The notes beneath the pieces were generated by a model. It did not search any database. It saw only the letters and a program-made list of their open reading frames with translations, and had not been told where the DNA came from. Positions 1,498 to 20,332 of a stretch of DNA of 64,000 nt are shown one piece after another. The stretch comes from Pseudovibrio axinellae (GTDB lineage Bacteria > Pseudomonadota > Alphaproteobacteria > Rhizobiales > Stappiaceae), in contig NZ_FOFM01000003.1 of NCBI RefSeq assembly GCF_900110875.1, positions 248,001 through 312,000 on the forward strand, written 5' to 3'. The translations under genes were made by a program, and so were the position numbers. The first letter of the stretch is position 1. Each line of letters starts with the position of its first letter.

Positions 1498-1507
1498 AAT
1501 GCTGTTT

Positions 1508-3733
<2,226 letters not shown>

Positions 3734-3962
3734 TTACCTTAAGCGGTGCCGCAATGAGATGCATCCAGCAAATCCTAGACTGACTGTAGAGAAAAGTTTG
3801 CATCAGGAAAAATTGTATATTTTTATCATTCGATAAGAATCTATTATTTTATGGAAGGAGGGTTTTCAACCAAACGATGTGAACGAACTCTTGTGAATGT
3901 TTCAAACGAAGGAGGGAGTTATCCGTAACTTGATTAGGCACCAAGCTAACCAATAGCTCCCT

Positions 3963-4726: not shown

Positions 4727-5503
4727 ATGAAAAATCGTTTCCTCACGACCTCCGTATTGGCCTGTCTGGCATTGGGCACACTGGCTCAGGCGAGCTTTGC
4801 ACAAGAGACCACCTCAAAAGACTGTTCCGTTGCCGAATTCAAGATGGGCCTGCGTTTTCAGCAACAATCAGCTGAAATCCGTGCGCTGCAGAGACAAGCC
4901 TATAATATTGCGCGGCAAAAGCTTGCGGCAGCAGTTGAAAAAGCAGAGGATCCTTCCAAGCTGGCCATCGTTTCCGATCTTGATGAGACCGTGATCGATA
5001 ACACTGCTCTGCTGGCCCGTGATTTGGAGAACTGTCACACTTATGATGCCTGGGACACATGGCTTCCGTGGGAGCGTGACGGCAAACCGACCCTGATCCC
5101 GGGTGCAAAGGAATTCCTCAACTACGCAGATGAACTGGGTGTTGCTATTCGCTATATTTCTGACCGAGCGGACAAGCAGAAGGAGCATACTCTTGCAACG
5201 CTGGGTGAGCTTGGCCTGCCGCAGATCAGCCCCGAGACCGTTCTTTTGCTGGGCCCTCCAAAGGCAGAGCGACGCGAGATTGTGCGCGCTGACCATCAGA
5301 TCGTTCTGATGTTGGGTGATACGCTGCATGATTTCGATGGCGGCTTCCGCAAAACCCCGCTCGACGATCAGATATCGCTGGTCGACAAAAGCGCTGCAAA
5401 ATGGGGCACCGAATGGATCGTCTTCCCGAACACCGCCTATGGCACATGGTCTGAAGCACCACTGAGCACATGGGGCGATGAAACCATTATTGAAAAGTGG
5501 TAA
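4727..5503 (+). CDS. Secreted HAD-superfamily acid phosphatase (class B/C, lipoprotein e(P4)-like)
   Basis: A 258-aa protein with a cleavable signal peptide (MKNRFLTTSVLACLALGTLAQ, cut near ASFAQ), so it is periplasmic or secreted. The HAD motif I is IVSDLDETVIDN, with Asp84 as nucleophile and Asp86 as general acid. Motif II is probably IRYISDR, and the acidic motif near the C terminus is MLGDTLHDFDGG. This pattern fits subfamily IIIB acid phosphatases / 5'-nucleotidases, which remove phosphate from nucleotides and other monoesters outside the cytoplasm. There is no lipobox cysteine at the signal cleavage site, so it does not look like a lipoprotein. It stands alone, followed by a GC-rich hairpin. 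Confidence 0.88.
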   Translation: MKNRFLTTSVLACLALGTLAQASFAQETTSKDCSVAEFKMGLRFQQQSAEIRALQRQAYNIARQKLAAAVEKAEDPSKLAIVSDLDETVIDNTALLARDLENCHTYDAWDTWLPWERDGKPTLIPGAKEFLNYADELGVAIRYISDRADKQKEHTLATLGELGLPQISPETVLLLGPPKAERREIVRADHQIVLMLGDTLHDFDGGFRKTPLDDQISLVDKSAAKWGTEWIVFPNTAYGTWSEAPLSTWGDETIIEKW

Positions 5504-5528
5504 TCGGAGGGGCTTGACCGTGTATAAG

Positions 5529-5549
5529 GCCGCCGGACTTTCCGGCGGC
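5529..5549 (+). terminator. GC-rich hairpin after the acid phosphatase gene
   Basis: GCCGCCGG (5529-5536) pairs with CCGGCGGC (5542-5549) around a 5-base loop, 26 bases past the stop codon. There is no U-run, so it may stabilise the 3' end rather than terminate by itself. Confidence 0.5.
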
Positions 5550-5589
5550 TGAATGTTCGAAAAGCCCGACAAAACGTGTCAGAATTTGA

Positions 5590-5621
5590 GTTTGCATTGG
5601 TTAGTGAGTGCCAATGCAAAC
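5590..5621. repeat. Perfect inverted repeat (stem-loop)
   Basis: An 11-base arm beginning GTTTGCATTGG at 5590 is matched exactly by CCAATGCAAAC ending at 5621, with a 10-base spacer. It lies between two converging genes and could fold in either transcript. No U-run follows. Confidence 0.55.
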
Positions 5622-5732
5622 TACGCGAGAGAAGTGTGACATCACTTCTTCAGTCCAGCCCAACAATCTATCCTCAAGGACGCGAAAGCACTGCCAAAAG
5701 CGATGGCAGAGCCAACCAACGTTGTCCATGAC

Positions 5733-6614
5733 CTACAAAATCACAGTAACTTTGCCGTTTGCGCTGACTAAGACGTCACCCTGGGATTCAATTTGAGTTG
5801 GCGGATTAAGGTCGGCCTTCGCAACGTCTTTTGCCATAGGCCACCACAGCTGTTCATACCAAGATTCAACTTTCACTCGATCAGGAACCCCAAATCGTTC
5901 CTGTTCGTGGTGGGGGATTTTGGCGGTGCCGTGTATGATATCAAAGATGAACAGGAATGATCCAAAATTGCACATTCCATGACCGTATTTTCCGAGGCCG
6001 TGGTGGGCATGGTGTGTGTCCGGCAGCGTGATGAACTTCTCCAGAACGCGCATGATTGGTCTGGTTAGCGGGAGAGCATGAAGCTTTAGATCCCATCTGG
6101 TGTTTGTGTGAACCATGAACTCTGATGAGCCTTTCCAGGCCGCCGCGACGATTGCAGCTTCCGCCTGACCCGCCCAAACCATAAATGCCCCCATCAACGA
6201 ATATGGCAGAACAACGAACCAGAGCCAGTTTTCCCGGAATGCGATCGTCACATTCACATGTTCGGGCAGGTGGTGCGGTTTGTGAAGCCGCCATAACCAT
6301 GGAACTGAATGCGACAATCGGTGCATCCAGTAGTGAATGTACTCTTCAACCAAAACGTAAGTGATAAACGCCAGCCAAAAATTGACGCCCGACAAGAAGC
6401 CGCTGTGATGGGGAAACAACACCACCAACAACCAGCCATAGAACGCAACCAGTACTGCTCTGACGAAAATAAAATTGATAAAGCTAAGAATATTGACGCC
6501 TATCTCATGAAGACTAAAAGCAGCTCGCTTTCTAAGTGCGCCAAATAACACGTCCAACAGGATGAAAAATACCCCAAATCCAAGAATGATTTGGGCAGCA
6601 GTCGTCTGTACCAT
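5733..6614 (-). CDS. Membrane-bound fatty acid hydroxylase / sterol desaturase family protein
   Basis: A 293-aa integral membrane protein of the di-iron fatty acid hydroxylase superfamily. The histidine clusters that bind the two irons are visible: HYWMHRLSH, then LHKPHH, and TLPDTHHAHHG near residue 205. At least four hydrophobic segments surround them (residues 1-25, 40-65, 75-95, 150-170). The family hydroxylates or desaturates lipids using O2 and electrons from a redox partner. The next gene upstream in the same direction, 15 bases away, encodes a 2Fe-2S flavoprotein reductase, a plausible electron donor. Substrate is unknown: fatty acid, sterol, carotenoid and plasmalogen types share these motifs. 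The C-terminal 40 residues are less conserved. Confidence 0.88.
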   Translation of the reverse strand: MVQTTAAQIILGFGVFFILLDVLFGALRKRAAFSLHEIGVNILSFINFIFVRAVLVAFYGWLLVVLFPHHSGFLSGVNFWLAFITYVLVEEYIHYWMHRLSHSVPWLWRLHKPHHLPEHVNVTIAFRENWLWFVVLPYSLMGAFMVWAGQAEAAIVAAAWKGSSEFMVHTNTRWDLKLHALPLTRPIMRVLEKFITLPDTHHAHHGLGKYGHGMCNFGSFLFIFDIIHGTAKIPHHEQERFGVPDRVKVESWYEQLWWPMAKDVAKADLNPPTQIESQGDVLVSANGKVTVIL

Positions 6615-6629
6615 TTCACATGCCCCTTG

Positions 6630-7739
6630 TTAGTTTTGTATGTCTGCGTACTGATCCTGCGCCTGCTTTAAGGCTGAAACAGAACGTTGATCTAGAAACT
6701 TGTCACAATGAATACGCTCTGGCGGAATGTCGGCGCGAAGTGCGGTCTCAATCGCATCCACCATTTCAGGCGGCCCACACAGATAGGCATCACAATTACC
6801 AATGTGTTGTACCTCCTTGTGCAGATGTTCAGTTATATAGCCCCTGCGGCCTTGCCACCTTGAGTGTGTTGGCTCCTCGGAGAGAACCGGCAGGTAGCGG
6901 AAAGGTTCTGGCCAATCAGCCTGTATTTGCTGCAAACCTTCTTGCCAGAGCAGGTCCTCTTCCCGGCGCGCGCCAAAGAAGAAAGTTACAGGGCGAAACT
7001 GTTTTTGAATCTGCATGTGTTGCAGCAGAGCCTTAATTGGCGCAATGCCGCTTCCTCCCGCAAAACAAAGTACTGGCCGATCTGTAGTGTGGTAGTGAAA
7101 ATCGCCATATACCTTTTCCAGAACTATTGGTGCACCAGTGCGGTCCTGCGAAAATAACCAGTCAGTAAAGTCGCCGCCAGGAACGTGCCTGATGTAAAAA
7201 ACTGGTTTATCAGTGCCGCCTTCGGGTGCAGGAGCTGCAAAAGAGTAATTACGTGGTGTACGCGATAGCTTCTCAATACCAGGCACAGATAACCGTGCGT
7301 ATTGACCGGCAATATAACGGACAGGCTGGGCAAGCTTCAGTTTAACCTCAACAATGTCGTGGGTTAACGTTTTGATCTGAGCAATGGAACCGTTGATTGA
7401 TGCCTCGCTCATCTGGTTGCCAAACCCAGGAACGGTCACTTTTAGTTCACTAAGAGCAATGCTTTGGCAGGCAAGGACATGGCCTTCGCGAATTTCATCA
7501 ATTGGAATATGATGTGTAATGTCGCGCTTTAGCTTGACCTGACCTTCTGTGACCTGACAACGGCAGGTGCCGCACTCGCCGACGGTACACATATTCGGTA
7601 TTTGAATATCGCCAGCCCGTGCCGCTTCCAGAATAGTCTGGCCCCTGATGATGGGCGCGTCATGCTCCGTGTTATTGATGCTCAATCTATAACTGGGCGA
7701 AGATCCTTTAAATAAACGCAAATATTCCTCCCATAGCAT
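6630..7739 (-). CDS. 2Fe-2S ferredoxin / FAD-NAD(P)H oxidoreductase (reductase component)
   Basis: A 369-aa electron-transfer protein with three domains. Residues about 15-100 form a plant-type ferredoxin with CTVGECGTCRC plus a later cysteine (LACQS) as 2Fe-2S ligands. Residues about 110-215 are an FAD-binding barrel with RTPRNYSFA. The C-terminal NAD(P)-binding part has CFAGGSGIAPIKALL and ends with YLCGPPEMVDA. This architecture is that of reductases for multicomponent oxygenases. It lies directly upstream of the membrane hydroxylase gene and is probably co-transcribed with it. The start is uncertain by a few codons. A LysR gene is transcribed divergently from the other side of a 103-base spacer. 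Confidence 0.88.
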   Translation of the reverse strand: MLWEEYLRLFKGSSPSYRLSINNTEHDAPIIRGQTILEAARAGDIQIPNMCTVGECGTCRCQVTEGQVKLKRDITHHIPIDEIREGHVLACQSIALSELKVTVPGFGNQMSEASINGSIAQIKTLTHDIVEVKLKLAQPVRYIAGQYARLSVPGIEKLSRTPRNYSFAAPAPEGGTDKPVFYIRHVPGGDFTDWLFSQDRTGAPIVLEKVYGDFHYHTTDRPVLCFAGGSGIAPIKALLQHMQIQKQFRPVTFFFGARREEDLLWQEGLQQIQADWPEPFRYLPVLSEEPTHSRWQGRRGYITEHLHKEVQHIGNCDAYLCGPPEMVDAIETALRADIPPERIHCDKFLDQRSVSALKQAQDQYADIQN

Positions 7740-7842
7740 TCAGGAGTGACATGATTGCCACTGATATGAATGTTTAGAGTCAATCCAGATTGCGTGCTAA
7801 TGGATAATACGTATCCTAGATATTGAAAAAATATATATCTGA

Positions 7843-8778
7843 GTGAGCATGAATCTACGCAGGACAGACCTTAATTTGCTGACTGTTTTTGACGCTGTGA
7901 TGCGTGAAGCCAGCGTTACGAGAGCAGCTGAAAAACTGGGCATGAGCCAGCCTGCGGTCTCCAATGCCATTTCTCGCCTTCGCGTGCTGCTTAAGGATGA
8001 GTTGTTTATTCGCACTGCTCATGGCGTGCGACCAACGGTAAAAGCTCTGCACTATGCAGGGCAGATACAGCGAATTCTAGATCAGGTAACACTGATGCTT
8101 TCTGAGACCGAAGCTTTCGACGCCGCTCGCAGTGAACGTACCTTTAATTTGGTGCTTGGCGATTATGGAGAGATGGTCGTATTGCCTGCACTGATGCAAT
8201 ATTTGGACGAAATACAAGCGAAGATAACGATCAACGTTCTTTCTCCGCGACAGTTTATGAGAGCTGATGCTCTTCGCAAGGGTACTGTTGATTTCATCCT
8301 CGGATACGAACCTATGGCGGCCTCAGATATAAAAAACGAACTGGTCATTGAGGAGAGCCTGGTGTCCCTAGCCAGAATAGGGCATCCCATAGTCAAAGAG
8401 AGTTTAACTCTGGATCAATATGTTTCGGTGCCTCATGTCGTCATTGACTGGCCCAACTCGCGCGGATCCATGGTAGACCAACAATTAAGATCCCTGAGCC
8501 TTCAGCGCCAACATCGAATGCGCGTGCATAGTTTTTTTGACATGCCGCGTGTGGTTGCCACGACAAACATGGTTTGCACTGTACCGTCGCAGATGGCGCA
8601 TCAATTCGCTGTGTCCCACAACCTTGTTTCATTTCCCGTTCCAATTCCTGACACCAAGCAATCTTTCTACCTGATCTGGCACAGCAGCTTTGAAGGCGAT
8701 CCGGGACTTATCTGGTTAAAAAACGTCATTTCGGGCATGTTGGAAAACGCCTTTCCGCCAGAGAGTAGTCTCCCCTAA
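7843..8778 (+). CDS. LysR-family transcriptional regulator
   Basis: A 311-aa regulator with the N-terminal winged helix-turn-helix RRTDLNLLTVFDAVMREASV...MSQPAVSNAISRLR and the usual LysR continuation (LFIRTAHGVRPT). The rest forms the two-lobed effector-binding domain of the NodD/LinR-like group. Start is GTG at 7843 or ATG at 7849. It diverges from the reductase-hydroxylase pair across a short AT-rich spacer (7740-7842), the classical layout for a LysR activator controlling its neighbour and itself. The ligand cannot be read from sequence. Confidence 0.92.
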   Translation: MSMNLRRTDLNLLTVFDAVMREASVTRAAEKLGMSQPAVSNAISRLRVLLKDELFIRTAHGVRPTVKALHYAGQIQRILDQVTLMLSETEAFDAARSERTFNLVLGDYGEMVVLPALMQYLDEIQAKITINVLSPRQFMRADALRKGTVDFILGYEPMAASDIKNELVIEESLVSLARIGHPIVKESLTLDQYVSVPHVVIDWPNSRGSMVDQQLRSLSLQRQHRMRVHSFFDMPRVVATTNMVCTVPSQMAHQFAVSHNLVSFPVPIPDTKQSFYLIWHSSFEGDPGLIWLKNVISGMLENAFPPESSLP

Positions 8779-8830
8779 GCAGTCCAGACTGAAAGTTGCT
8801 GGACTTCATTACTTCGCCTTAGCTGCTGGC

Positions 8831-9904
8831 GGGTAATTCCCCCGGTATTTGATCGAGTTTAAAAGTAGAGATAGTGCTTCCTCCTATTGAGGACTAGTTT
8901 TATGAAGAAATCTCGTTTCAGCGATGCGCCGATGATCTCAACAATGAAGTCGACAGAAGATGAGCTGCGCCGTTTCAAGAAAATGCATGCCGAGCTGTCG
9001 CTACAAAATGAGCTTTTGAAGGAAGCCTTGGCAAAAAAGTAAGCAAGCCACCTCAGCGCAAGGAGATGGCTGTGTCTGCTGCGGAAGGTAAAGGGGTGTC
9101 CATCGCTCTGGCGTGCCGCACGTTTGGTGTCAGCGAGCGGTGTTATCGTTATGAACGACGTTTGAGTGATGAAAACGCTGTGATCGCTGATTGGTTGCTG
9201 CGCTTGACAACCACCCATAGGACTTGGGGGTTTGGGCTGTGTTTTTTGTACCTTAGCAATATCAAAGGCTTTGGCTGGAACCATAAGCGAGTTTACCGGA
9301 TTTATCGCGAGCTGGAGCTGAATCTGCGGATCAGACCGCGTAAGCGCCTGAAGCGAGCAATGCCAGATAAACTAACAGTGCCAGAAGCGCCAAATCAGGT
9401 TTGGTCGATGGACTTTATGGCCGATCGGCTGGAAAATGGCAGGCGGTTCAGAACGCTCAACATCCTTGATGACTTCAATCGGGAAGGGTTATGTATCGAG
9501 GTTGATTTATCCCTTCCGGCGCTGCGCGTGGTACGTACCCTTGAGCAAGTCATTGAATGGCGAGGCAAACCAGGCGTGATACGGATTGATAATGGCCCTG
9601 AAAATATCAGTGAAACCCTGTTAAACTGGGCTCGAATGCAAGGCATTAAGGTGCAGCATATTCAGCCTGGTAAGCCCGCTCAGAATGCCTATGTGGAGCG
9701 CTATAACAGAACAGTCAGGCAGGAATGCTGGATCAGAACTGCTTTCAATCCATCGAACAGGTACAAGAAGAAGCCACAAACTGGCTCTGGACATACAACA
9801 ACGAACGGCCCAACATGGTCATCGGCGACATCACACCCGCTACAAAACTTAAACTGGCAGCATAACTCTACTGCTAAACTCCTCCATAAATGGGGGGATT
9901 ACCC
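8831..9904 (+). mobile_element. Degenerate IS3-family insertion sequence
   Basis: Imperfect inverted terminal repeats are visible: GGGTAATTCCCCCGG at 8831 on the left, and the complement of GGGTAATCCCCCCAT ending at 9904 on the right. Similarity continues inward (GAGTTTA, AGTAGAG). About 1.07 kb long. Right of it the sequence is in the middle of an IS5 transposase frame (TGYGQRSR), so this element appears to have landed in that IS5 copy, whose left part is now missing. No target duplication remains. Confidence 0.8.
8902..9865 (+). pseudogene. IS3-family transposase OrfAB, broken
   Basis: OrfA (8902-9042) is only 46 codons. It keeps the start (MKKSRFSD) and the C-terminal coiled part ([19 protein letters not shown]) but lacks about 40 codons including most of the helix-turn-helix. 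It ends at an AAAAAAG slippery heptamer (9033-9039), the usual -1 frameshift site into OrfB. OrfB carries the DDE residues in [18 protein letters not shown] and AYVERYNR. A one-base deletion near 9727 shifts the frame; the original C terminus ([20 protein letters not shown] to TKLKLAA) is readable in another frame to 9865. Both lesions make it inactive. Confidence 0.85.
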
Positions 9905-10142
9905 AGACCGGATACGGGCAGCGCTCAAGAGGCGAGACCTTGATGGGGCGTTATAAACAGATCTTCGGCAACGCGTTGAAGTCCCGTGATTTTGAAAACC
10001 AGAAGACGAAAGCCAGCATCCATGTCTCCGTCCTCAATACAATGACCGCCCTCGAGCGTCCGGAGTTCGAGCGCGTCAACGCGGCCTGAGTTAAACGGGT
10101 AAGGGCGAGCTGTAAGCTGAATTTTCTTTACGCAACACGGCC
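9905..10142 (+). pseudogene. C-terminal tail of an IS5-family transposase plus element end
   Basis: In the frame ending at 10089 the sequence reads [20 protein letters not shown] and finishes ALERPEFERVNAA, the characteristic C terminus of this IS5 group. The 5' part is absent, cut off by the IS3-family element. After the stop, GCAACACGGCC at 10132-10142 is the outer end of the element; the 45 bases before it match 4294-4338 almost exactly. It is therefore a relative of the miniature element near 4 kb. Confidence 0.8.
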
Positions 10143-10169
10143 TCACGTGGTGACAGCGGTATTTTATAC

Positions 10170-10230
10170 AAAACCTAGGATCTCATTCTCGACCCGTTAT
10201 TGCTCGCTATTCATATGCCTAAAACCTAGG
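10170..10230. repeat. Direct repeat AAAACCTAGG upstream of the PhyH gene
   Basis: Two identical AAAACCTAGG copies at 10170-10179 and 10221-10230, 51 bases apart (about five helical turns), lie between the IS5 end and the PhyH start. CCTAGG is itself palindromic. They could be operators; this is inference only. Confidence 0.35.
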
Positions 10231-10267
10231 GTTGCTGCGGTCCAAGTGCGTCCGTTAGGATGCCACA

Positions 10268-11299
10268 ATGACACCTCTGAAGATACTCAAGAGCCCTCTA
10301 TGGATTGCTGATATCGCTCTGGGTGGGAAGTCATTTCGGGATAACCCGATTATCGGCAACCGCTCCCTCAATGAGCGAGGCTTTCATGTTCAGCGGATGG
10401 CGTTTGCGGAACATATGGCAGACATGCGCCGCCGGCAGATAGAACATTTTTTGCCAGCGGATGACCGAAAGTTCTTTCACGAAAATGGGTATGTCGTGCG
10501 CCACAACGCATTGCCTGACGATGTCTTTAGGGCTGTGCAAGAGGAGCTGGAAGATAACGAATTTGCGGCGCGTGAGTTGAAGCAGGGGCGAACAGTCACC
10601 CGTTTCATTGGTCTGACACCATCGATACTGGCGAAGCTACCTGGCTTGCGCGCTGCTGTCGGCACAACTTCTTTCCAGCAAGGCTTACGTTACGTTGCAT
10701 CCAACAATGCTGATCCACTCGTGTATCTGCATACTGTCCTTTGGGATATGGATGACAAACGTAAAGACCCGCAAACCAACTTTCATTCAGACACCTTTCA
10801 CTCCATCGCAAAAGCTTGGCTATTTCTGAAGGATGTTGAGCTTGCGGATGGGCCTTTTCAATATGTGCCTGGTTCTCACCGGCTAAATGCTGTCCGCAGA
10901 CGATGGGAGTATGAGCAAAGCCTCATAGCTGCATCCCACCGCGATGGTAATCACGCTGTTGGCTCATTCCGTATCACTGAAAATCAGTTGCAGCAGATGG
11001 GATACAGCAAACCTGTGTCCTTCGCAGTTCCCGCAAACACTCTCGTCATCGCAGATACGCATGGCTTCCACGCTCGGGGTATAGCAACTCGTCCGGGCCT
11101 GCGTATTGGGATGTATGGTTCCGTGCGCCGTTCCCCGTTCTTGCCTTGGGCAGGCGGCGACATGCGATCGCTTCCAGGTATCAAAGGGCACCAAACCGAA
11201 ATCTTTGGTGCTTATCTCGACTGGCGTAGGAGAAAAGGCAACCGCGTTTCCCATGTGGGTGTGGGAAAAGTCAAAGCGACACAACCCGCAGTGCGTTAG
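10268..11299 (+). CDS. Phytanoyl-CoA dioxygenase (PhyH) family protein
   Basis: A 343-aa Fe(II)/2-oxoglutarate-dependent dioxygenase-like protein. The metal-binding triad is visible as His-x-Asp in TNFHSDTFHSIAKAW and the distal His in ADTHGFHARG; RPGLRIGMYGSVRRS supplies the arginine expected to bind 2-oxoglutarate. The ADGPFQYVPGSHRLN stretch is typical of PhyH proteins. Family members hydroxylate lipids, halogenate or modify small molecules; the substrate here is unknown. It is a single gene with fragments of mobile elements on both sides (IS3/IS5 upstream, Tn3 transposase downstream), so it may be cargo of a former mobile element. Unlike its neighbours it has no visible lesion. Confidence 0.87.
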   Translation: MTPLKILKSPLWIADIALGGKSFRDNPIIGNRSLNERGFHVQRMAFAEHMADMRRRQIEHFLPADDRKFFHENGYVVRHNALPDDVFRAVQEELEDNEFAARELKQGRTVTRFIGLTPSILAKLPGLRAAVGTTSFQQGLRYVASNNADPLVYLHTVLWDMDDKRKDPQTNFHSDTFHSIAKAWLFLKDVELADGPFQYVPGSHRLNAVRRRWEYEQSLIAASHRDGNHAVGSFRITENQLQQMGYSKPVSFAVPANTLVIADTHGFHARGIATRPGLRIGMYGSVRRSPFLPWAGGDMRSLPGIKGHQTEIFGAYLDWRRRKGNRVSHVGVGKVKATQPAVR

Positions 11300-11553
11300 C
11301 TGGTTGTGTCGGGCTAGCGGTGCCACTGTTGTGAATTGTGGCGAGTTGGCCTCTTCACACGCCGAAAATGAGAGACACTTCCCGAATTGTCATCTCCCTC
11401 ACTACACAGGTGGCTCGGAAAATCTGGGCAGGTAGTGTAAGTGGAACTTTCTCCTGAAACGGGCAATTTGCTTGCAACACGAGAACTACGTGGCAAGAGG
11501 GCCTCACGACACGAAAGTGTTGAATTTGTCCGGGATTTGAGAACATAAAGTGA
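11300..11553. other. Unassigned stretch between the PhyH gene and the Tn3 fragment
   Basis: No coding frame of interest. Because the Tn3 TnpA stop is at 11554, a transposon end would be expected in this stretch; GGGCCTCACGACACGAAA at about 11499 is a weak candidate but does not show the usual GGGG...TAAG ends. Confidence 0.25.
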
Positions 11554-12150
11554 TCATGCTATCAGGAGTGAACTTTCTTTGCGCAGTGGACGCAGCGCGT
11601 GGTTTTTGATTAGCGTCCAGATGTAGTCGCCAGTGAGGCTAATGTGTTGCCGCCATAGAGGCGCAATATGTTTGATGACTTCTTCCGGAGTGGCGATACC
11701 GTTTTGATTGAGCTCTGCCTAAGCCTGCTGAAGATAAAGTGTGTTCCAGTAAGCAACTACATTGATGAGGATGTTCAGCCCAGATGCGCGGAAAAACTGG
11801 CTTTCCAATGTTCTGTCGCGAAGCTCTCCCAGACGATTAAAGAACAGTGCACGTGCCAGCGTGTTTTGTGCCTCACTTCTGTTGAGGCTGGCTGTTGCAT
11901 TGCGGCGCATCTGCGGGCTTTGCCACCATTGTGTTAAGAAGATTGAGCGGTTGATGCGTCCAATATCACGAAGGGCCAATGCTAGTCCATTTTGCCTCGG
12001 AAAAGCGGACAGTTTTGCCAGCAAGGTCGATGTCCGCGTTTGACCGGACCGTATTGTTGTCACCAGACGCAGGATATCGTTCCAGTTTGCTTTTATTCTA
12101 CCTATGTTGATGTGGGAGAGAATTAAAGTCTCATACTCAGTAATAAAGAT
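11554..12150 (-). pseudogene. C-terminal fragment of a Tn3-family transposase (TnpA)
   Basis: Read on the minus strand the fragment gives ETLILSHINIGRIKANWNDI, then LSAFPRQNGLALALRDIGRI, ASLNRSEAQNTLARALFFNR and VVAYWNTLYLQQA, the conserved C-terminal third of Tn3-family TnpA. An in-frame TAG near 11720 interrupts it; the frame then continues AELNQNGIATPEEVIKHIAP to a stop at 11554. Everything upstream of about 12150 is unrecognisable. No convincing 38-base Tn3 inverted repeat or resolvase was found beside it. Confidence 0.85.
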
Positions 12151-12318
12151 TCAAACTGAGGAATATAGTATCATACTGACGAGGGCTTAGCGGACAAAGC
12201 TGCCGTTCGCTGCACCGCAAGAACTCAGGCAAATGAGAGGCCGTTGCCTGCACGCAGGGCGAGAAGCGGGCCTCGGGGTATTTCTATCGAGGGTTTAGGT
12301 AGTACGTGAGCTCAGCGG

Positions 12319-12477
12319 TCATTCAATGGTGACAATGGGCGAGCCGGAACTAATGCTCCCACCACAGCCAATTGCGTCACCAACACGGGCAGCAGGTTTA
12401 CCGTCAATCGTCACAATAGAAGAACCTGCTGAGACTGAACGTGGATGCGGAGGAGCCGGGCACACAGCGCACCCACG
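12319..12477 (-). pseudogene. C-terminal fragment of a PAAR-domain protein (type VI secretion tip family)
   Basis: Fifty-two codons in a frame ending with TGA at 12319 read RGCAVCPAPPHPRSVSAGSS, then IVTIDGKPAARVGDAIGCGG and end SPIVTIE. The Gly-Lys-Pro-Ala-Ala-Arg-x-Gly-Asp motif is the PAAR repeat signature of the sharp cap proteins that sit on VgrG spikes. The 5' part is missing; at about 12478 the sequence changes into IS630 transposase. No other T6SS gene is present, so this is a remnant and not a working system. Confidence 0.75.
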
Positions 12478-13172
12478 GTGCAATCAAGGCATTTGCGCTT
12501 AGTCCTGCGATAAAGGTTTGCGTTCCCGAACTTCCAAAAGGGGCGTCCATCTCCAGCCGTTTGCCTCTCGTTGTCCAGCCACGCTGACGCGTAGGGTTTG
12601 TTTTGACAGCAGTTTCATCAATAAAGACCATGCGTTCAGGAGCACTCTTGATGGCTGGGGTACGGTGCTCGAACCATTCTGCCCGTCGCAGCTTTACCTT
12701 GAGCTTCTGACGTTCGCTGACAACCAACGACTTTTTTTATGCGTAAAGCCAAGGCGCTTCAACAGCTGAGCAATGGCAGAATGATGAACTTTGACACCTT
12801 GGCATCAAGGAACGCATCGCGCAGTTCGAACAACGTGATATCCGGGTCTTGCTTAACCAATTCTTTGAAAAAATCAACATAGGCCGCTAGCTTGCCAGTG
12901 CCAGTGCCAGTGCCAGTTGAGCGCCCCATTGGCGCGATCACAGCTCAGCCACAGTTGCGGATATTGCGAGCGCAACGCGATCCGGTTGCGGGTGATACCT
13001 GAAGGCATCGTGCAGCCTCTCTACCTGACACGCCCTCCATAATAAGACAAGCAAAGCGATCTCAAAGTTCAATTGGAAACGGTGCTGGCATGATGTAATC
13101 CTCCTAAACGCTGTGAATCACAAATCAAACACATCGGAATCCCATCGATTCAAAGTTTCTTCGAAACGCTTT
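12478..13172 (-). pseudogene. IS630-family transposase, degenerate
   Basis: From an ATG at 13091 the minus strand reads MPAPFPIEL, a TGA in place of an expected Arg codon, then DRFACLIMEGVSGREAARCL, the N-terminal helix-turn-helix part. After a garbled stretch it continues GKLAAYVDFFKELVKQDPDI, VHHSAIAQLLKRLGF and ERMVFIDETAVKTN, where the Asp of FIDET is the first catalytic residue. The C-terminal third, with the remaining DDE residues, is lost at about 12478 where the PAAR fragment begins. Several frameshifts separate the parts. The left end is probably at a TA near 13172. Confidence 0.82.
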
Positions 13173-13761
13173 AGAAACTTATTGTCGTAGTGAACGTGCC
13201 GCAGCGGCCACGTTGCTCATTTGATGTTAGCGGCTTGTATTTTTAATCGCTTGGTTAGCACATAGATGCGAAACCGAACGCCGAGTCACTCCCAGAAGTC
13301 TCTCTCGATATCGATTTTTTCTGCTGTTCGTTGATTAGTAAGTTCTTCAGCCGGTTTGACGCAAATGGCTTTATAGCTAAGTTGCCCATCCCTCTGGCAC
13401 GTCAGCAAAAAGTCAGTGGTTATAACATTTGGGTTCTTAGTCGAGATGACCAGTGGTACTTGATATTAAGAGAGCTTGCAATTCGGAGTGTCTGGTCTAG
13501 GGGAAGAAGCGGAAATTGCTCACGGATATCAATAACGCGTTCATTGTGCTCGCAGAGGTAGAAAAACGCACTTTCATTGTTTGAAAGTAAATGATGTTCG
13601 CGTTGTGTTTTCATTCCCCAAATCTTGGAACATGTTCCATGAGAGGGAATGTCCTGCACTCGTATCCAGGGCTTGTAAGAAGCTCCTTCTCCGAGACCAT
13701 ATTTGTTGCGAAGTGAACGCTGAAAATCTTTGATTTCATTCAGCTTTCGTCCTCTTGCCAT
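13173..13761 (-). pseudogene. tnsA: TnsA-type transposon endonuclease of a Tn7-like element, decayed
   Basis: The frame from ATG 13761 reads MARGRKLNEIKDFQ, YKPWIRVQDIPSHG, REHHLLSNNESAFFYLCEHN and VIDIREQFPLLPLDQTLRIA, which match Tn7 TnsA closely (VLDIREQFPLLPSDTRQIAI in Tn7). A one-base loss near 13456 shifts the frame; the other frame continues NVITTDFLLTCQRDGQLSYK, AICVKPAEELTNQRTAEKID and IERDFWE before a TGA at 13288. The restriction-fold catalytic residues, Glu of NNES, Asp of TTDF and Lys of VKP, are all still visible. TnsA cuts the 5' strands during cut-and-paste transposition. No tnsB, tnsC or tnsD/tniQ remains in the window. Confidence 0.87.
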
Positions 13762-13802
13762 GTTGTTTCTCTTTGTTCGGCTAAAGGGTGGAAAGATTTT
13801 AG

Positions 13803-13884
13803 TGTGCAGGAATTATTATTCCGTTAGGCGCTTGTGTGCAAAAATTATTAGCTATGTGCAGAAATTATTATACACACTCACACA
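13803..13884 (-). mobile_element. Putative Tn7-like transposon end with three TnsB-type binding sites
   Basis: Three 16-base repeats of consensus TGTGCA[G/A][G/A]AATTATTA start at 13803, 13835 and 13855. Read inward from the YhiN-like gene the sequence begins TGTGTGAG (complement of 13877-13884) and then meets these sites in order. This is the design of Tn7-family ends: 5'-TGT, about 8 terminal bases, then repeated TnsB sites. It lies just ahead of the tnsA start, as in Tn7-like elements. TnsB itself is absent, so the sites cannot be matched to a protein. Confidence 0.72.
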
Positions 13885-15056
13885 AACTGCCCGGCTGCGT
13901 GGCCGGAGGACCAGGCCCATTGGAAGTTGTAACCGCCCAGGTGGCCGGTGACATCAACGACTTCTCCAATAAAGTAGAGGCCAGCCACACTGGTTGCCTC
14001 CATTGTTTTGGAGGAAAGAGCCTTTGTGTTTACACCGCCAAGGGTGACTTCAGCAGTGCGGTAGCCTTCTGTCCCAACTGGTTTGATGGTCCACTCGTTA
14101 ACTGCTAGTGCAGCTTTGCGCAGCACTTTGTCTGAGGTGTCAGCCAGTCTTCCGCTGAGCTTTTGCTCTGCGGTGATATGGGCTGCAAGTTTCTTTGGAA
14201 GTAAGCCGGCGAGGGCCGTTTTCAGCTCTTGTTTTGGCTGGGCTTGTTTTGCAGACTTCAAAGCTTCAAACACATCGGTGCCCGGCAGCAAGTTAACGCG
14301 GATGTCTTTGCCTTCTTCCCAATAAGAGGAAATCTGTAAGATAGATGGGCCGGAAAGGCCGCGGTGTGTAAAGAGTAGGCCTTCGCGGAAGCTGGTCTTT
14401 TTATAGGAGACAACCGCATCAACACTGACACCTGCCATATGCTTTGAGCGCTCACGCATGACATCGTCAAAAACGAAGGGAACAAGGGCTGCATGTGGTT
14501 CGATGACTTGCAGGCCAAACCGTTTGGCGACCTCGTAACCAAAGCCGGTGGCGCCCATTTTCGGTATGGATGGGCCGCCGCAGGCAACAACAACAGAGTG
14601 TGCGCGCACAGTGCCTTGCGAGGTGCCGATGGTAAAACGGTCATCGGGTTTGCTTACAGACGTGATGCTTGTCTCAAGGCGCAACTGCACCCCATTGCGA
14701 TTACATTGGTCTAGCAACATGTCGATGATCTGTTGTGCGCTGTCATCGCAAAACAGCTGGCCCAGTGTCTTCTCATGCCAGCCGATGCCATAGTGATCGA
14801 CCAGCTTGATAAAGTCGTGCTGCGTATAGCGCTTTAAGGCCGAAACTGCAAACCGTGGGTTTTGAGAAAGGTAGTTGGCAGGAGACGCGTGCAGGTTCGT
14901 GAAATTACAACGCCCACCACCGGAAATGCGGATCTTCTCGGCCGCCTTTTTGGCATGGTCAATCACCAGCACAGTTCGTCCGCGTTTGCCAGCTTCGATG
15001 GCACACATCAGGCCAGCAGCGCCTGCACCAATAATTAAAACATCAACATTTTGCAT
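13878..15056 (-). CDS. YhiN/HI0933-family FAD-dependent oxidoreductase
   Basis: A 392-aa flavoprotein of the HI0933 / BaiN-like family. The N-terminal dinucleotide-binding fold is VDVLIIGAGAAGLMCAIEAG, followed by the family signatures KKAAEKIRISGGGRCNFTN and, at the C terminus, LYFIGEVVDVTGHLGGYNFQ with WAWSSGHAAGQ. The biological role of most family members is not settled. The gene's last codons coincide with the Tn7-like end: the final Val codon and TGA are formed by the transposon's terminal bases. yhiN is, as I recall, a known attachment gene for one branch of Tn7-like elements, which fits this position. Confidence 0.9.
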   Translation of the reverse strand: MQNVDVLIIGAGAAGLMCAIEAGKRGRTVLVIDHAKKAAEKIRISGGGRCNFTNLHASPANYLSQNPRFAVSALKRYTQHDFIKLVDHYGIGWHEKTLGQLFCDDSAQQIIDMLLDQCNRNGVQLRLETSITSVSKPDDRFTIGTSQGTVRAHSVVVACGGPSIPKMGATGFGYEVAKRFGLQVIEPHAALVPFVFDDVMRERSKHMAGVSVDAVVSYKKTSFREGLLFTHRGLSGPSILQISSYWEEGKDIRVNLLPGTDVFEALKSAKQAQPKQELKTALAGLLPKKLAAHITAEQKLSGRLADTSDKVLRKAALAVNEWTIKPVGTEGYRTAEVTLGGVNTKALSSKTMEATSVAGLYFIGEVVDVTGHLGGYNFQWAWSSGHAAGQFV

Positions 15057-15154
15057 TGCGCCCTTATATGGGCTTTGGAGCCAAGGTCAACTCGTGAACC
15101 AATAAAAGAGGAGGATCAAAGCCCTCCTCAATACAACCCAATCTAAGTCAGTGT

Positions 15155-17200
15155 TTAAGCGTCAACCACATCAGACAGGAACGTGGAGATTGTCTTACGC
15201 AGTTCACTTGCCTGTTTGGAAACAGAGGACGATGCCTCTAACACTTCATTTGCTGAACTGTTGGTCTCCTGAACAGAGCTTGTCACAGCTCCCATGCTGT
15301 CCGCGACATCCTGTGTTCCTTGTGCAGCCTGTTGGATGTTTTGGCTGATGGAAGAGGTTGCAGCATTTTGTTGCGCGATCGCAGTTGCGATGGAGCTGGT
15401 ATACTCATTCACCTGATGCATGGTGCCAGCAATCTGCTCAATTGCAGTTACAGCCTCCTTCGTGGAGCCCTGAATTCCTGAAATTTGGGAGGAAATCTCC
15501 TCAGTTGCCTTTGAGGTCTGGGTCGCCAGCTCCTTAACTTCGGAGGCAACCACCGCAAAGCCCTTACCCATTTCACCAGCACGTGCTGCCTCGATGGTCG
15601 CGTTCAGTGCCAAAAGGTTGGTCTGCTCAGCAATGTCACGAATAAGGTTGACCACCTCCCCAATCTTCTGGGCAGCGGCATCAAGGTCTGCAACATGATC
15701 GTTGGTGGCTGTTGCGACGGCAGTTGCATCATCAACAGTTTGCTTGGTCTGGGAGACCTGACGGCCGATCTCTTCAATGGAGGCAGAAAGTTCTTCAGCA
15801 GCAGAAGCCACAGTCTGTACGTTTTGAGAGGCCCTTTCAGATGATCCGGCAGCACCGCTCGCACGCTCAGAGGTAGTTGTTGCAACGTGGGTCAGTGTAT
15901 CAGCGGTCTGCTGCATCCTGTCGGTGTTATTATCGACCTTGTCGAGAACTTCCGACACCTGGTCATTAAACACGCTGATTAGTTGATCCACGTGCATTTG
16001 GCGATCACGCTCGTGTTCCGTTTCCTTCTCAGAAACGTTCTGCAGGCGCTTTTGCTCAGCAACGGTGTCGCGGAAGGACATAACCGCGGTTGCGACAAGT
16101 CCAATCTCGTCGTTACCAATCGCTTTGGAGAAGCTCACCGTGATGTCGCCGTCTGCCAGTCGACGAGAGTCTTTCAAGAGTGCAGCAACCGGAACAGACA
16201 CACTGCGGATGATCGCGAAGGCCATTGCAATACCCAGCAGCGCCACAATGCCGGCTATGACCAATGCATGGGTAAACTCCCACTGGGCCTTGGCAACCAG
16301 CTTTTGCGAATGGGCCACCAAGTCATTGGACAGGTGGTCTTCGAACTCCTTCAAGGCATCAATGCGCTGGGTGGCCAGATCAAACCATTCTGGGCCCGTC
16401 ATGGAGGAAATGTCTCCACCAAATGCAGCGGAATAGCCCAAATTTCTTGCCGCATCGACCTGACGCATAATCGGGCGCTTGGAAATTTCCTCAAGAACGC
16501 TGATCTGATACCTGCTCATGAGCGAACGGGCGGCCTTGAAGTATGTGTCCTGATTTGCGCGAAGACGGATAAAGAGGCGATAAAGATCAGGGGCAAACTC
16601 TTGAGCACTAAAGCCATTAGCGCCAATGGCACGTTCGATCCCTGCGTTCTCTTTACCAAGCAAAATTTCTTCATAAACACTTAGCTTAAGAGCCAGACTG
16701 GCGTCGCGGCTAACTGCAATGGTGCTTGGCAGAAACTTGAAGGCATCGTTGATGGTGCCGCTGTAGTAGCTCACGGTCTTGCCAACAGTGGTATCCAGCA
16801 TAATGACCTTGCTACGGACCTGGTCGATATCAGCAAGTTGCGCATTCACAAGCTCAACTTGCGCGGCAAGGTTTTGATCAATGGAACTCAGGTTGATATT
16901 GGACAGTGCAGCTTCGTAAATACGGATTTTACTGTCAGTCAGTTTGTGCTGTTCTTTAAGGCTCTGCCCAAAGCTCTTACCTTTAGCACCAAGATACCCG
17001 GCAGAACGCCCACGTTCTTTTTGCAGTTCGTGAACAACGGCACTTAATACAGGCACAAATTCTGCAATCTGTCCCGTGGAGGAGGCTTCTACCTTGTCAT
17101 TGTAGGCAGTATTAATGTGTGACCCAGCAAAATAAAGCATGGGCACAAACGCAAGCAAGAAGATCGCGATAATGCGATACTTTAAGAGAATACGACGCAT
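15155..17200 (-). CDS. Methyl-accepting chemotaxis protein with NIT sensor domain
   Basis: An inner-membrane chemoreceptor of about 681 aa. A first transmembrane helix ([17 protein letters not shown]) is followed by a large periplasmic all-helical domain of the nitrate/nitrite-sensing (NIT) type, with the hallmark [15 protein letters not shown] second helix ([20 protein letters not shown]) leads to HAMP ([13 protein letters not shown]) and then the signalling domain with the hairpin tip [20 protein letters not shown]. No C-terminal CheR-binding pentapeptide is evident. Start at 17200 is chosen because AGGAG lies 8 bases upstream; the upstream ATG at 17227 has none. No che genes are adjacent, so it is an orphan receptor. 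Confidence 0.93.
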
Positions 17201-17477
17201 GAGAGCTCCTGTCAGCGAAACCAGCATTTCAGTTTTGGGAGGGTAAACTGCAAACCGATTTCACAAACCTGTGATTACAATTTCTAATTGAACCGCGAAG
17301 TCTTTATAGAGTCTTTATCAGAGCGCGTAGATTTCCGTTTTAGCCTAATTATTTTTATCTAAGTAGATTTGTGTCAATCATTGGTATGATGTTTATTTAG
17401 TATAGTTGAAGTTTAAAGTAAATTTTGGATGGCTAAGAACAAAGCAGAGGTTGATTGAGTCGGTACCGGTGATCGAC

Positions 17478-17504
17478 AAAAAAAGGGAGCCGAAGCTCCC
17501 TTTT
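17478..17504 (-). terminator. Rho-independent terminator of the TRAP binding-protein gene
   Basis: GGGAGC (17485-17490) and GCTCCC (17495-17500) flank a CGAA/TTCG tetraloop. On the minus strand the hairpin is followed by a run of seven T (17484-17478). It lies about 25 bases past the stop codon at 17526. Confidence 0.9.
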
Positions 17505-17525
17505 AATAGGCGTTTACTGTCTATG

Positions 17526-18614
17526 TTATGTTGACCAGACTTGTGCGCGGTCCTGATAAAGCTGCCCTTCCATACGTGCACCGTATAAAGAGCATGCTTT
17601 TACATAGGCCATATAGGAACCATGGATCTTTTCGCTCATTGCATCACCCGATGGGTACGCAGCGACCACTTCTCGCGCCGCTGCACCAATGGCCTCAATC
17701 ACATCAGGTGGGAAAGAGGATAGGATTGCTCCACGCTCCACCAATGTAGACAGGGCGACTGTGTTGTTATAGCGAAACTCTGCTGTGGTCTCTTCTGACT
17801 GAGCCGTTGCAGCCTGGGCCAGGACCTCTTTCAACCAGGGGCTGAGATTCTCATAGATGTTCTGGTTTACAATCATTTCCAGCCCTGGGCCTGGCTCATG
17901 GAAGGCAGGCAAATGATAGTATGGCGCAATCTTATAAAGGCCGAGCGCAAGGTCATTCCAGGGACCAACAAATTCGGCGGCATCAACCACACCGGATTGC
18001 AGGGCAGGGTAGATCTCTGGCGGAGGTGTGACGACAGTTGTTGCGCCCACCTTGCGCAAGATATCACCACCAAGGCCAGCTATGCGCATCTTAAGGCCAA
18101 CAAGGTCATCGAGGGATTGGATTGGCTTTTTGAACCAGCCACCCGCCTGTGCACCGGAGCTACCCGCATAAAACGGTTTTACATTGTGTGGCGCATAAGC
18201 TTCGTCCCACAGCTGTTGCCCACCACCATGACGCAGCCAGCCAGATAGCTCGGTCGCATCCAGACCAAATGGCAGTGAGGTGAAATACATCGTCGAGCGA
18301 ACCTTGCCCACTTGATAGTACGGCGCGTTATGGCCGATATCAGCAGTACCGGAAGAGACGGCAGAAAAGGTCTCGAAAGGAGGAACCAGCTCGCCGCCGC
18401 CATAGTACTTGATGGAGATTTTCCCATCAGATAGCGCTTCAATGCGTCGGCCAAGCTGCTCAGCTGATGTGCCTACGCCCGGAAAGCCCTTTGGAAACGA
18501 GCCCACCAGCTTCAGGTTCAGTGTTGCGTTTGCAAGTGCTGGTGCAGCCAGAACAGATGCACCTCCCGTTGCACCGGTGGCAACGGCTGTTTTGAGAAAG
18601 TCACGCCGTTTCAT
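17526..18614 (-). CDS. TRAP transporter solute-binding protein (DctP family)
   Basis: A 362-aa periplasmic binding protein. The N terminus MKRRDFLKTAVATGATGG is a twin-arginine (Tat) signal with RRDFLK, ending near ALANA. The body has the DctP features: LKLVGSFPKGFPGVG opening, GTADIGHNAPYY, LVGLKMRIAGLGGDILRKVG with the conserved Arg that binds a carboxylate, and VDAAEFVGPWNDLALG. It belongs to the TAXI-unlike, YiaO/mannonate-type group that binds keto acids or other carboxylates. No DctQ or DctM membrane gene is near, so its partner is encoded elsewhere. It has its own terminator. Confidence 0.9.
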   Translation of the reverse strand: MKRRDFLKTAVATGATGGASVLAAPALANATLNLKLVGSFPKGFPGVGTSAEQLGRRIEALSDGKISIKYYGGGELVPPFETFSAVSSGTADIGHNAPYYQVGKVRSTMYFTSLPFGLDATELSGWLRHGGGQQLWDEAYAPHNVKPFYAGSSGAQAGGWFKKPIQSLDDLVGLKMRIAGLGGDILRKVGATTVVTPPPEIYPALQSGVVDAAEFVGPWNDLALGLYKIAPYYHLPAFHEPGPGLEMIVNQNIYENLSPWLKEVLAQAATAQSEETTAEFRYNNTVALSTLVERGAILSSFPPDVIEAIGAAAREVVAAYPSGDAMSEKIHGSYMAYVKACSLYGARMEGQLYQDRAQVWST

Positions 18615-18738
18615 CTGTACTCTCCATCAACGTTAAAAATACCTACGCATAAATGCTGGTGCAATGCTAGCAGAGGGCAAGCGTGCTGGCGATGGTTTTA
18701 GGGTGCCCAAAGACTGAACTTACCCAATCAAAATGTGC

Positions 18739-19290
18739 TTATTTGAGGATTTCGATCATACGCTCAAGCTGCTCTTCAATATCCAGTTGCTTCTCATCCA
18801 GAATTTGGAAGATGCCGTTGTGGTTTATGCCTTCAACAGCCAAATAGACCAGTTTTGCCAGTCCAGGGTCTTCGGATTCTGCCTGAATGCGCTCAAACAT
18901 TTCCTTATGGAATGTGCGCACAGGGTCGAGCATACTTGGATCATCAGCGATAGCAGCAAGCATGCCAGAAGCAGCGTTATTGTCGTTCTTAAACTTGCTG
19001 CACAGTCCCTTCAGGAAGGATCGCATGAGCTTATGCCGATAAGGGTCGCCGGCAATGGCCTGCTCAGCCTCGGCAATGTTGGCACGCGCATCATCAACAT
19101 GATGCTGCACCATGGCACGAATGAGCGCGTGTTTACTTGGAAAGTTGTAGAGCAGTCCGCCTTTGGAAACGCCTGCATGCTTGGCAACTGTGTCCAGTGA
19201 AAACTGGCCGCCACCTTGCGCCTGAACGATATCAATGGCCGCGTCAAGAATGCGTTGCTGTGTTCTGCTGGCTTTCGTAGTGCCCTTCAC
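18739..19290 (-). CDS. TetR-family transcriptional regulator
   Basis: A regulator of about 183 aa with the TetR helix-turn-helix: RTQQRILDAAIDIVQAQGGG, FSLDTVAKHAGVSKGGLLYN and FPSKHALIRAMV. The C-terminal helical domain (SGMLAAIADDPSMLDPV, LAVEGINHNGIFQIL) resembles the TetR_C_37-like group that controls efflux or dehydrogenase genes. GTG at 19290 is preferred as start since GGACG lies 6-10 bases upstream and the helix-turn-helix then begins near residue 10; a longer frame to 19371 is possible. The TRAP gene downstream could be co-regulated, but a target cannot be named. Confidence 0.85.
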   Translation of the reverse strand: MKGTTKASRTQQRILDAAIDIVQAQGGGQFSLDTVAKHAGVSKGGLLYNFPSKHALIRAMVQHHVDDARANIAEAEQAIAGDPYRHKLMRSFLKGLCSKFKNDNNAASGMLAAIADDPSMLDPVRTFHKEMFERIQAESEDPGLAKLVYLAVEGINHNGIFQILDEKQLDIEEQLERMIEILK

Positions 19291-19783
19291 ATTTCGTCCT
19301 TTGCCCAATTCTGCGAGCTCACGCAGAGAATGTACTAGTCTAAACCAAAGCTGATCTGAGACTTTAGTCACTATAAGCCATCAAAAGCAATATTGCGAGG
19401 CCATGTGCTCATTAGAACTAGGAAATTTACGATGTAAAAACAACGAAGTCAGGGAGCTTGGACAAAACAACCTGAAAGAAGGGCGCTAATCTTGCTTGAA
19501 TTTGGTGAGCAGAGCTTTAGGCAAGTTCGATGACAAGAGTGTATGCAGCTTAGTTTTAATAGTTCTCAAGCGAGTTGAACCCTTTGCTAAAGTATATGCT
19601 GCTGTGAGGGGGAGTCTGCGAAATATCTGGAGAACACTTTGAGTGTCATTATGGCATATGGAAAGCAAAAGGCCTGACGGCATCTGGCGAAAAGCCGACG
19701 CGCATCAGGCCAAATTGTCCGGCATTACAAAGTCTAATTAGCAGATGCCAAATTAAACTCTATAATCCCTCAGGCTTCTCAGA
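19291..19783. other. Intergenic region between the tetR-type gene and cspA
   Basis: No convincing gene. A 65-codon minus-strand frame (19486-19683) has no family resemblance. An inverted repeat with arms GGCCTGA/TCAGGCC at about 19672-19712 lies 70 bases past the cspA stop and could be its terminator, although no long U-run follows. Confidence 0.4.
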
Positions 19784-19809
19784 TTAAACGAGTTCAATCT
19801 GAGAAGCCT
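19772..19809 (-). repeat. 14-bp perfect stem-loop overlapping the cspA stop codon
   Basis: AGGCTTCTCAGATT (19772-19785) pairs exactly with its complement at 19796-19809 across a 10-base loop. One arm is the last coding triplets of cspA, and the stop codon TAA (19784-19786) falls at the base of the loop. Such a structure could protect the 3' end or slow the last ribosome. No U-run follows on either strand. Confidence 0.75.
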
Positions 19810-19996
19810 GGAGGCCGCGGCCACGACGATCATCTTCAGCAATGAAAGTAAGCGCAGCACCTTCAGCTGGAACAGCTACACCGGAGCGCTCAAAAGCAGT
19901 GATGTGTACGAAGAGGTCTTTAGATCCGTCACCTGGAGTGATGAAGCCGTAACCTTTGTCGTGGTTGAAGAATTTGAGTGTGCCGTCTTGTCGCAT
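19784..19996 (-). CDS. Cold-shock protein (CspA family)
   Basis: A 70-aa single-domain OB-fold protein that binds single-stranded RNA or DNA. RNP1 is KGYGFITP and RNP2 is LFVHITAF, with the usual GTLKFFNHDKGYGF start and a C terminus ending RGRGLQASQIELV. It has the slightly shorter, AAEGAALTF-type core common in alphaproteobacteria. It is monocistronic. The 5' leader contains a short hairpin with CGCCGT arms (20028-20042), which could act in temperature or translational control. The 3' end lies in a strong stem-loop. Confidence 0.95.
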   Translation of the reverse strand: MRQDGTLKFFNHDKGYGFITPGDGSKDLFVHITAFERSGVAVPAEGAALTFIAEDDRRGRGLQASQIELV

Positions 19997-20332
19997 CGAA
20001 ACGTCCTTTGTGCCATAAAATCCAACTCGCCGTAGTACGGCGGGCTATGTGTGACGAGCAATGTAATTAAAGGCAGTAAAAGGACATTGTCGCGATCGAT
20101 CAATCGTAACGCTGCCAACTGTGTCTCCAAAAACAGCCCGTAATCATCAAGTCTGAGCTCTGATCTCATTCAAAAGCAACAGTCTCAATTTTAATATAGG
20201 GGGACGGGTTATATGTCGCCCCTACAATTCTACGGGATAAGCAAATCTCTAAGCTCGCTCGTCCGTGCTAACCTAGGTTCTCTGGATGAAATCCACAAGA
20301 CATAAACCCTAAAAAATAGAAATGTTGGAGAA
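19997..20332. other. Leader and spacer upstream of cspA
   Basis: No gene seen. Holds the hairpin CGCCGT-AGT-ACGGCG at 20028-20042 in the likely cspA leader, and a palindrome AACCTAGGTT at 20270-20279. Cold-shock genes often have long structured leaders, so transcription of cspA may begin well inside this stretch. Confidence 0.4.

Follow-up and report, generated by a model that had tools for sequence, protein, structure and literature searches.

The 3′ end of a yhiN gene of Pseudovibrio axinellae, which encodes a HI0933-like flavoprotein, is adjoined by a repeat-bearing transposon end and by the decayed remains of a tnsA gene that reads away from yhiN on the same strand (Table 1). These features were found in a stretch of 64,000 nucleotides, hereafter referred to as the window, which corresponds to G000:C59:248001-312000 of the P. 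axinellae genome (G000; 5.13 Mb in 93 contigs). A second Tn7-like end and fragments of other genes are located on the far side of tnsA.

Table 1. Features identified at and near the yhiN locus in the window.
Feature	Position	Strand	Evidence or remark
Second Tn7-like end	12111-12179	(+)	TGTGGGAGAG, followed by three repeats in 20-nt phase (12119, 12139 and 12159)
PAAR-motif gene fragment	12319-12483	(-)	PF05488, 36.6 bits; inside second end
IS630-type transposase-like fragments	12404-12941	(-)	DDE_3, 25.2 bits (cut-off 28.6) for 12404-12727
tnsA relic	13172-13761	(-)	Pfam match, tblastn alignment, in-frame stops
tnsA-proximal (right-type) transposon end	13803-13884	(-)	Exact motif matches, spacing, layout like that of relatives
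yhiN (HI0933-like flavoprotein) gene, docking gene	13878-15056	(-)	PF03486, 313.5 bits

The tnsA relic

The tnsA relic starts with an ATG at 13761, and its first frame is open to 13420. The homology shifts to another frame near 13456, so that in a tblastn alignment residues 2-103 of a Shewanella TnsA (L018) matched one frame and residues 104-190 another. The second part contains two in-frame TGA codons (13286-13288 and 13217-13219), and the homology to the related element of P. japonicus described below stops at 13172 (i.e., within tnsA). The defects of the relic are one frame change, two in-frame stops and a truncation near residue 190 of ~274. An earlier examination of the letters of this DNA (the sequence-only reading) had given ~160 readable residues, which the alignment over two frames corrects to ~190.

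In a genome-wide profile search, the Pfam family Tn7_TnsA-like_N (PF08722) matched 13262-13438 on the (-) strand above its cut-off (50.6 bits, E 1.2e-12). The matched region falls mostly beyond the frame change, and no Pfam family matched the first frame (113 aa) by itself at E 0.1. The real sequence of 13172-13761 scored 135 bits against TnsA. Of its 1000 dinucleotide shuffles, 190 matched at all, and the best of these reached 25.4 bits. The decayed tnsA frame proposed by the sequence-only reading is thus borne out, and its score is far above those of the shuffles against which that reading had asked for it to be judged. A chance open frame posing as tnsA was rejected on the HMM score, the shuffles and the synteny. 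The relic also keeps a Glu codon at 13573-13575, an Asp codon at 13412-13414 and a Lys codon at 13355-13357, which we take to be the TnsA catalytic triad, as had been proposed. These positions were located by motif via the alignment of the Shewanella TnsA to Tn7 TnsA (1f1z, 1t0f).

The transposon end and its border with yhiN

Three exact copies of AATAATTNNTGCACA on the (-) strand (13855-13869, 13835-13849 and 13803-13817), all within 67 nt and at spacings of 20 and 32, stand between the tnsA relic and the yhiN stop codon. They resemble TnsB sites, and we regard them as putative ones. With up to two mismatches, the motif was found 4 times in the window vs. 2.49 expected, and 25 of 100 shuffles reached 4, which is not above chance. 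The case for the repeats therefore consists of the three exact clustered copies, which agree with those claimed before, and of their match in the P. japonicus element, which has the same three. Compared with P. japonicus, the TG-rich stretch between the yhiN stop codon and the first repeat (~13870-13884) lacks 8 nt, and the transposon terminus is ambiguous within this stretch. The previously claimed TGT terminus is not fixed by such a TG-rich, shortened border; at the 11-nt spacing of the relatives the letters are TGA.

The element of P. japonicus KCTC 12861 (L012, G014) has the same end (~200 nt identical) and the same docking gene, and its tnsA is followed by tnsB, tnsC and tnsD, all three of which are open, whereas only the end and a broken tnsA are left in the window. 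L012 and G014 were taken to be the same strain on a 100% match across 10,953 bases. The P. japonicus TnsB (721 aa) gave 243 bits to Tn7 TnsB (7pik) and matched no Pfam family at E 0.01, and TnsC (472 aa) gave 151 bits to Tn7 TnsC. TnsD (527 aa), which is encoded on the strand opposite to tnsABC, matched the TniQ and TnsD families of Pfam above their cut-offs and gave 29.8 bits to Tn7 TnsD. The P. japonicus tnsA frame is also broken, at a place different from that in the window.

The comparison of the two species locates the border. The identity to P. japonicus jumps from 76% in 13865-13956 to 100% in 13765-13864. In yhiN it is 68-86% over 11 blocks of 100 alignment columns, while the first three blocks inside the element are 100, 100, and 98% identical and the rest of tnsA 79-95%. 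This step marks the border of the element, which is not simply descended with its host gene. The yhiN homologs of 14 other Pseudovibrio genomes are 64-88% identical to that of the window. The 3′ coding end of yhiN (LGGYNFQWAWSSGHAAGQFV) is presumed to be the attachment site.

Related elements docked at yhiN

A scan of genome contigs gave 140 TnsA relatives, the best 80 of which were kept. In 24 of these 80 loci, tnsA is preceded by a yhiN gene of the same strand; in L016 and L020, tnsA is further from yhiN, and a small, weakly TniQ-like frame separates the two. When the ends of the relatives were set 11 nt before the first repeat, the transposon end began 43-48 nt downstream of the NFQ[WY] W (or Y) codon, counted from its first base, in all 24 yhiN-docked loci. 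In 18 of the 24 this point is 4-9 nt beyond the start of the yhiN stop codon, and in the remaining loci, six from Yersinia, Escherichia, Enterobacter and Citrobacter, it falls inside the yhiN reading frame, which finishes within the element. The end of L014 reads TAT, not TGT.

A related element in Y. ruckeri ATCC 29473 has ends ~21.4 kb apart, each of them flanked by AACTT, which is likely a target duplication. A second element follows directly after the first. The duplication is not certain, because the T that adjoins this second element is shared, and the two loci were read up to a ~1.1-kb gap between them. An automatic search for left ends in the docked loci yielded one weak candidate (L029), which was not used. 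A second small protein is encoded near tnsD in several yhiN-docked elements (L014:15864-17009, L024:16142-17272, L034:16010-16936, and others). The TniQ family of Pfam matched above the cut-off in one of seven such proteins, below it in four and not at all in two; they have conserved Cys and His residues, and 11 columns are invariant in nine sequences. NCBIfam and PADLOC scans of the relatives' proteins gave only weak TniQ and regulator matches.

A TnsA tree of 81 rows and 102 columns was built with the best 80 of the 140 relatives, in which the P. japonicus row comes from the broken frame. All 25 yhiN-docked rows, window included, fall into one set of 32 rows (support 99/95), and the window TnsA pairs with that of P. 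japonicus (support 100/95). The yhiN label requires five gains or losses on this tree, compared to a mean of 21.4 after shuffling, and none of 500 shuffles was as low. The seven rows of the set that are not beside yhiN include L017 and L065 from two Photobacterium species, whose elements lie at the 3′ end of gcvP (~9857-10001; PF02347, 640 and 643 bits). The gene gcvP is the docking gene of two Photobacterium elements related to the yhiN branch; nothing on Tn7-like elements with gcvP was found in one open-licence library. Among the other rows, L040 is beside glmS, L031 represents the second copy of Y. ruckeri, tnsA is preceded by other frames in L036 and L037, and L013 has no frame of >80 aa ending upstream of tnsA. 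When 385 alphaproteobacterial genomes were searched with the Shewanella TnsA at E 1e-20, only P. axinellae and G361 matched, and the neighbor of the G361 match is glmS. The same open-licence library also gave nothing on yhiN and Tn7 in Alphaproteobacteria.

The yhiN sites of Pseudovibrio

The yhiN gene was found in 15 of 16 Pseudovibrio genomes, and a Tn7-like end stands directly behind it in eight of the 15. Only in P. axinellae and P. japonicus is this end accompanied by tnsA; G002, G003, G004, G005, G009, and G010 have AATAAAGTTTGTA-type ends there with no tnsA match. It should be noted that the AATAAAGTTTGTA motif was chosen after these yhiN places had been seen. Across the 16 genomes there are 11 exact copies of the 14-mer AATAAAGTTTGTAA, compared to one of the reversed pattern, and five of the 11 are beside yhiN (twice in G002, and in G003, G004, and G009); G005 and G010 carry one-base variants of it. 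A longer end pattern with up to three mismatches was found at 21 places, six of them beside yhiN, vs. four places for the reversed pattern. The remaining seven of the 15 genomes have no such end behind yhiN; five of them were scanned by motif, and the other two were inspected by eye and had no match to the longer end pattern. Because the motif is another one and seven of the 15 genomes have no end at all, we read the six tnsA-less ends as putative solo ends of other elements rather than host sequence. That the repeats of the window are sequence of the host locus was rejected on the same counts: none follows yhiN in seven of 15 genomes, and the motifs differ among the others. The sequence-only reading had named genomes that keep the same repeats beside yhiN without any element as evidence against it. 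Six genomes indeed have ends without tnsA, but their motif is different. It had also asked that the yhiN 3′ flanks of related genomes be searched for empty sites or intact elements with the same end repeats. P. japonicus has an element with the same end, although with a broken tnsA, and G015 is an empty site, in which a gene for a LytS-type kinase begins ~250 nt past yhiN.

This kinase gene was considered as a constant neighbor of yhiN for sizing inserts and rejected. It was found in eight of the 16 genomes and is near yhiN only in G015 (~0.25 kb) and G006 (~18.5 kb); in G009 it is ~87 kb away, and in the remaining five it is on other contigs. No insert sizes are therefore given. KatG was likewise discarded as a second anchor, being near yhiN in G015 and the window only. 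Two near-identical places with double end repeats were observed on smaller contigs of G009 (G009:C4:52796-52854 and G009:C5:42913-42971), a genome without a TnsB match. At two places in P. japonicus, L150 6546-6627 (G014:C8) and L151 1856-1944 (G014:C16), ends with different Tn7-like repeat types are arranged back to back, separated by a few bases at most.

The second Tn7-like end and the neighboring DNA

The three repeats of the second end match AGTAATAAAGNNNCATACTGA with 3, 1, and 2 mismatches, respectively. This motif was derived from a glmS place and not from the window, in which it has three matches vs. 0.02 expected by chance. At that place (G000:C67; L008, 1-2488), two copies of AGTAATAAAGNNNCATACTGA with 0 mismatches lie directly behind glmS, which is the classic attTn7 position, and are followed by a broken tnsA that is 41-43% identical to the tnsA of the window. 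Facing glmS-type ends ~9.2 kb apart were also observed in P. japonicus (G014:C9 ~8512-17700; L127 and L110). The only frame with a Pfam match in this unit is autotransporter-like, and no match to the tns queries was found in L127; the unit is possibly a non-autonomous one.

The PAAR fragment starts 140 nt beyond the last repeat of the second end. Similar PAAR pieces are found in the same genome at G000:C34:26160-26314, inside a Tn7-like end, and at G000:C69:3536-3631, where no Tn7-like end was found in the 1.8 kb examined. Between the tnsA break and the PAAR piece sit the DDE_3-like fragments, which resemble an IS630-type transposase and whose 12759-12941 part matched no Pfam family. The DNA beside the relic thus belongs, at least in part, to another element. 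The sequence-only reading had allowed that the element carried part of 8.8-13.9 kb as cargo, a region that includes a transposase gene with an integrase core (9066-9956), presumably IS3-like, and a PhyH gene (10268-11299). This cargo is unsupported, because no partner end was found and 12111-12483 holds a PAAR fragment and a Tn7-like end of another family. Elsewhere in the window, a TPP riboswitch was observed at 1287-1392 (-), just upstream of a frame at 274-1266 (-).

Lost genes and the missing partner end

With the P. japonicus proteins as queries, nothing was found in the P. axinellae genome for TnsB at E 1e-5 or for TnsD at E 1e-3; each matched two of the 16 Pseudovibrio genomes, P. japonicus itself and, distantly, G015. 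In the window, no match to TnsB, TnsC or TnsD was found near the site, and the best one elsewhere was a 25-residue TnsC match at 23 kb (E 0.01). Of the previously claimed loss of tnsB, tnsC, and tniQ, the parts on tnsB and tniQ therefore stand for the whole genome, while the absence of tnsC applies to the window. The element lacks the tnsB and TnsD/TniQ genes that a living member needs and was filed as remains.

No partner end of the yhiN element was found in positions 1-20000 of the window at up to three mismatches, and no target duplication was found for it, so that we infer the insertion itself. Elsewhere in the genome, AATAATTNNTGCACA occurs at eight further places (one exact, seven with one mismatch), and a TGT placed 11 nt ahead of the motif is absent from the matched strand at all eight. 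On the opposite strand, the exact copy (G000:C34:29932-29946; L130) is overlapped by two weak end-like repeats with 2 and 3 mismatches, one of which has TGT at the right distance, and a resolvase-like frame is nearby. This exact copy is an uncertain candidate for the lost left end of the yhiN element.

Interpretation and relation to known elements

We are confident that the feature is what is left of a dead yhiN-docking Tn7-like transposon of the Tn6230 kind, namely its tnsA-proximal end and the first two thirds of its tnsA. That such an element once docked here, as the sequence-only reading had suggested, is supported by the arrangement of the relatives, the TnsA tree and the published yhiN site. 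In a living element of this kind, TnsB would bind the end repeats and, together with TnsA, cut the element out. TnsC would link TnsA and TnsB to a TnsD-type protein with a TniQ domain and a DNA-binding C-terminus. TnsD would recognize the 3′ coding end of yhiN and send the insertion there in one orientation with a 5-bp target duplication, and the predicted insertion point, counted from the first base of the NFQWAW W codon, is ~45 nt downstream, at the stop codon. We infer that TnsD chose the site, and likewise the manner and timing of the remaining gene loss. Today, the tnsA relic and its end are an inert scar.

The role of yhiN as a docking site of Tn7-like elements, which the sequence-only reading had put forward, is in print (PMC11406308; PMC3401170). 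A 2024 review states that Tn6230 "targets yhiN att site" and gives the molecular details as unknown (PMC11406308). Another report describes, for Salmonella, E. albertii and Enterobacter cloacae, Tn7-like elements located at a "NAD-utilizing dehydrogenase" gene, at its 3′ end, and suggests that one of two TnsD proteins recognizes this gene (PMC3401170). A third places Tn6230 between yhiN and yhiM in E. coli (PMC10121019).

An alternative history, in which P. axinellae and P. japonicus inherited the element from their common ancestor, as opposed to separate arrivals or a transfer between the two, and it then decayed in each by descent, would account for the same element at the same gene in the two species and for tnsA frames broken at different places. 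We consider it rather unlikely, given that over ~200-270 nt the end and early tnsA differ little or not at all between the species and are too alike for descent at the rate of a host gene that is itself 68-86% identical; with 79-95% identity in the rest of tnsA, a mosaic with recombination is possible. The layout could also be taken to mean that 12111-13884 is one collapsed element, its repeats and tnsA lying in an island bounded by the second end. The second end and the yhiN-docked end do face each other, 1.7 kb apart, and a homolog of the second end lies in the same orientation in P. japonicus, at ~23.5 kb from yhiN. Nevertheless, the repeat motifs of the two ends differ (AGTAATAAAGNNNCATACTGA vs. 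AATAATTNNTGCACA), that of the second end matches the glmS-docked relic of the same genome, and the second-type end of P. japonicus faces another of its own type ~9.2 kb away, all of which makes a single element very improbable. Finally, a chance likeness of a non-transposon frame and AT-rich repeats would be in line with the unremarkable number of AATAATTNNTGCACA matches at two mismatches, but it is hardly credible in view of the HMM score, the TnsA shuffle control, the tree and the synteny in 24 loci.

The dead yhiN-docking transposon thus preferred shares its TnsA type, its end repeats, its docking at the 3′ end of yhiN and the position of tnsA at the yhiN-side end with Tn6230 and other gammaproteobacterial elements. 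It differs from them in that its host is an alphaproteobacterium, only an end and a broken tnsA are left, and the core of its repeats is AATAATTNNTGCACA, whereas most relatives read AATAAAG... The sister element of P. japonicus also differs in the orientation of tnsD, whereas the TnsD-type frame listed after tnsC in 15 other yhiN-docked loci is on the strand of tnsABC in all 15. The general anatomy is common to Tn7, whose TnsA, TnsB, TnsC, and TnsD are the closest matches of known structure to the proteins of the relatives. In contrast to Tn7, the docking gene is yhiN, not glmS, and the end motif is different; the glmS-type relic of this genome is a separate one, on C67. With yhiN instead of glmS as its neighbor, the element of the window was rejected as Tn7 proper. 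That the window holds the remains of a known kind of element in an alphaproteobacterium is well supported.

More speculatively, and with low confidence, yhiN and glmS of Pseudovibrio might be seen as graveyards at which Tn7-like families land repeatedly, lose their tns genes and leave solo ends; some of the ends without tns genes, such as those of the ~9.2-kb unit on G014:C9, might then belong to non-autonomous units that a related element can move in trans.

The scar in the window is of low to moderate interest in itself and the comparative set of more. The relic extends the habit of landing at yhiN to another bacterial class, the Alphaproteobacteria. The comparative set offers a near-fixed distance from codon to end (43-48 nt, 24/24), a two-ended reference element that has a likely target duplication, a candidate selector in TnsD, and a gcvP-docking sister pair, and the choice of yhiN by these elements is therefore testable.
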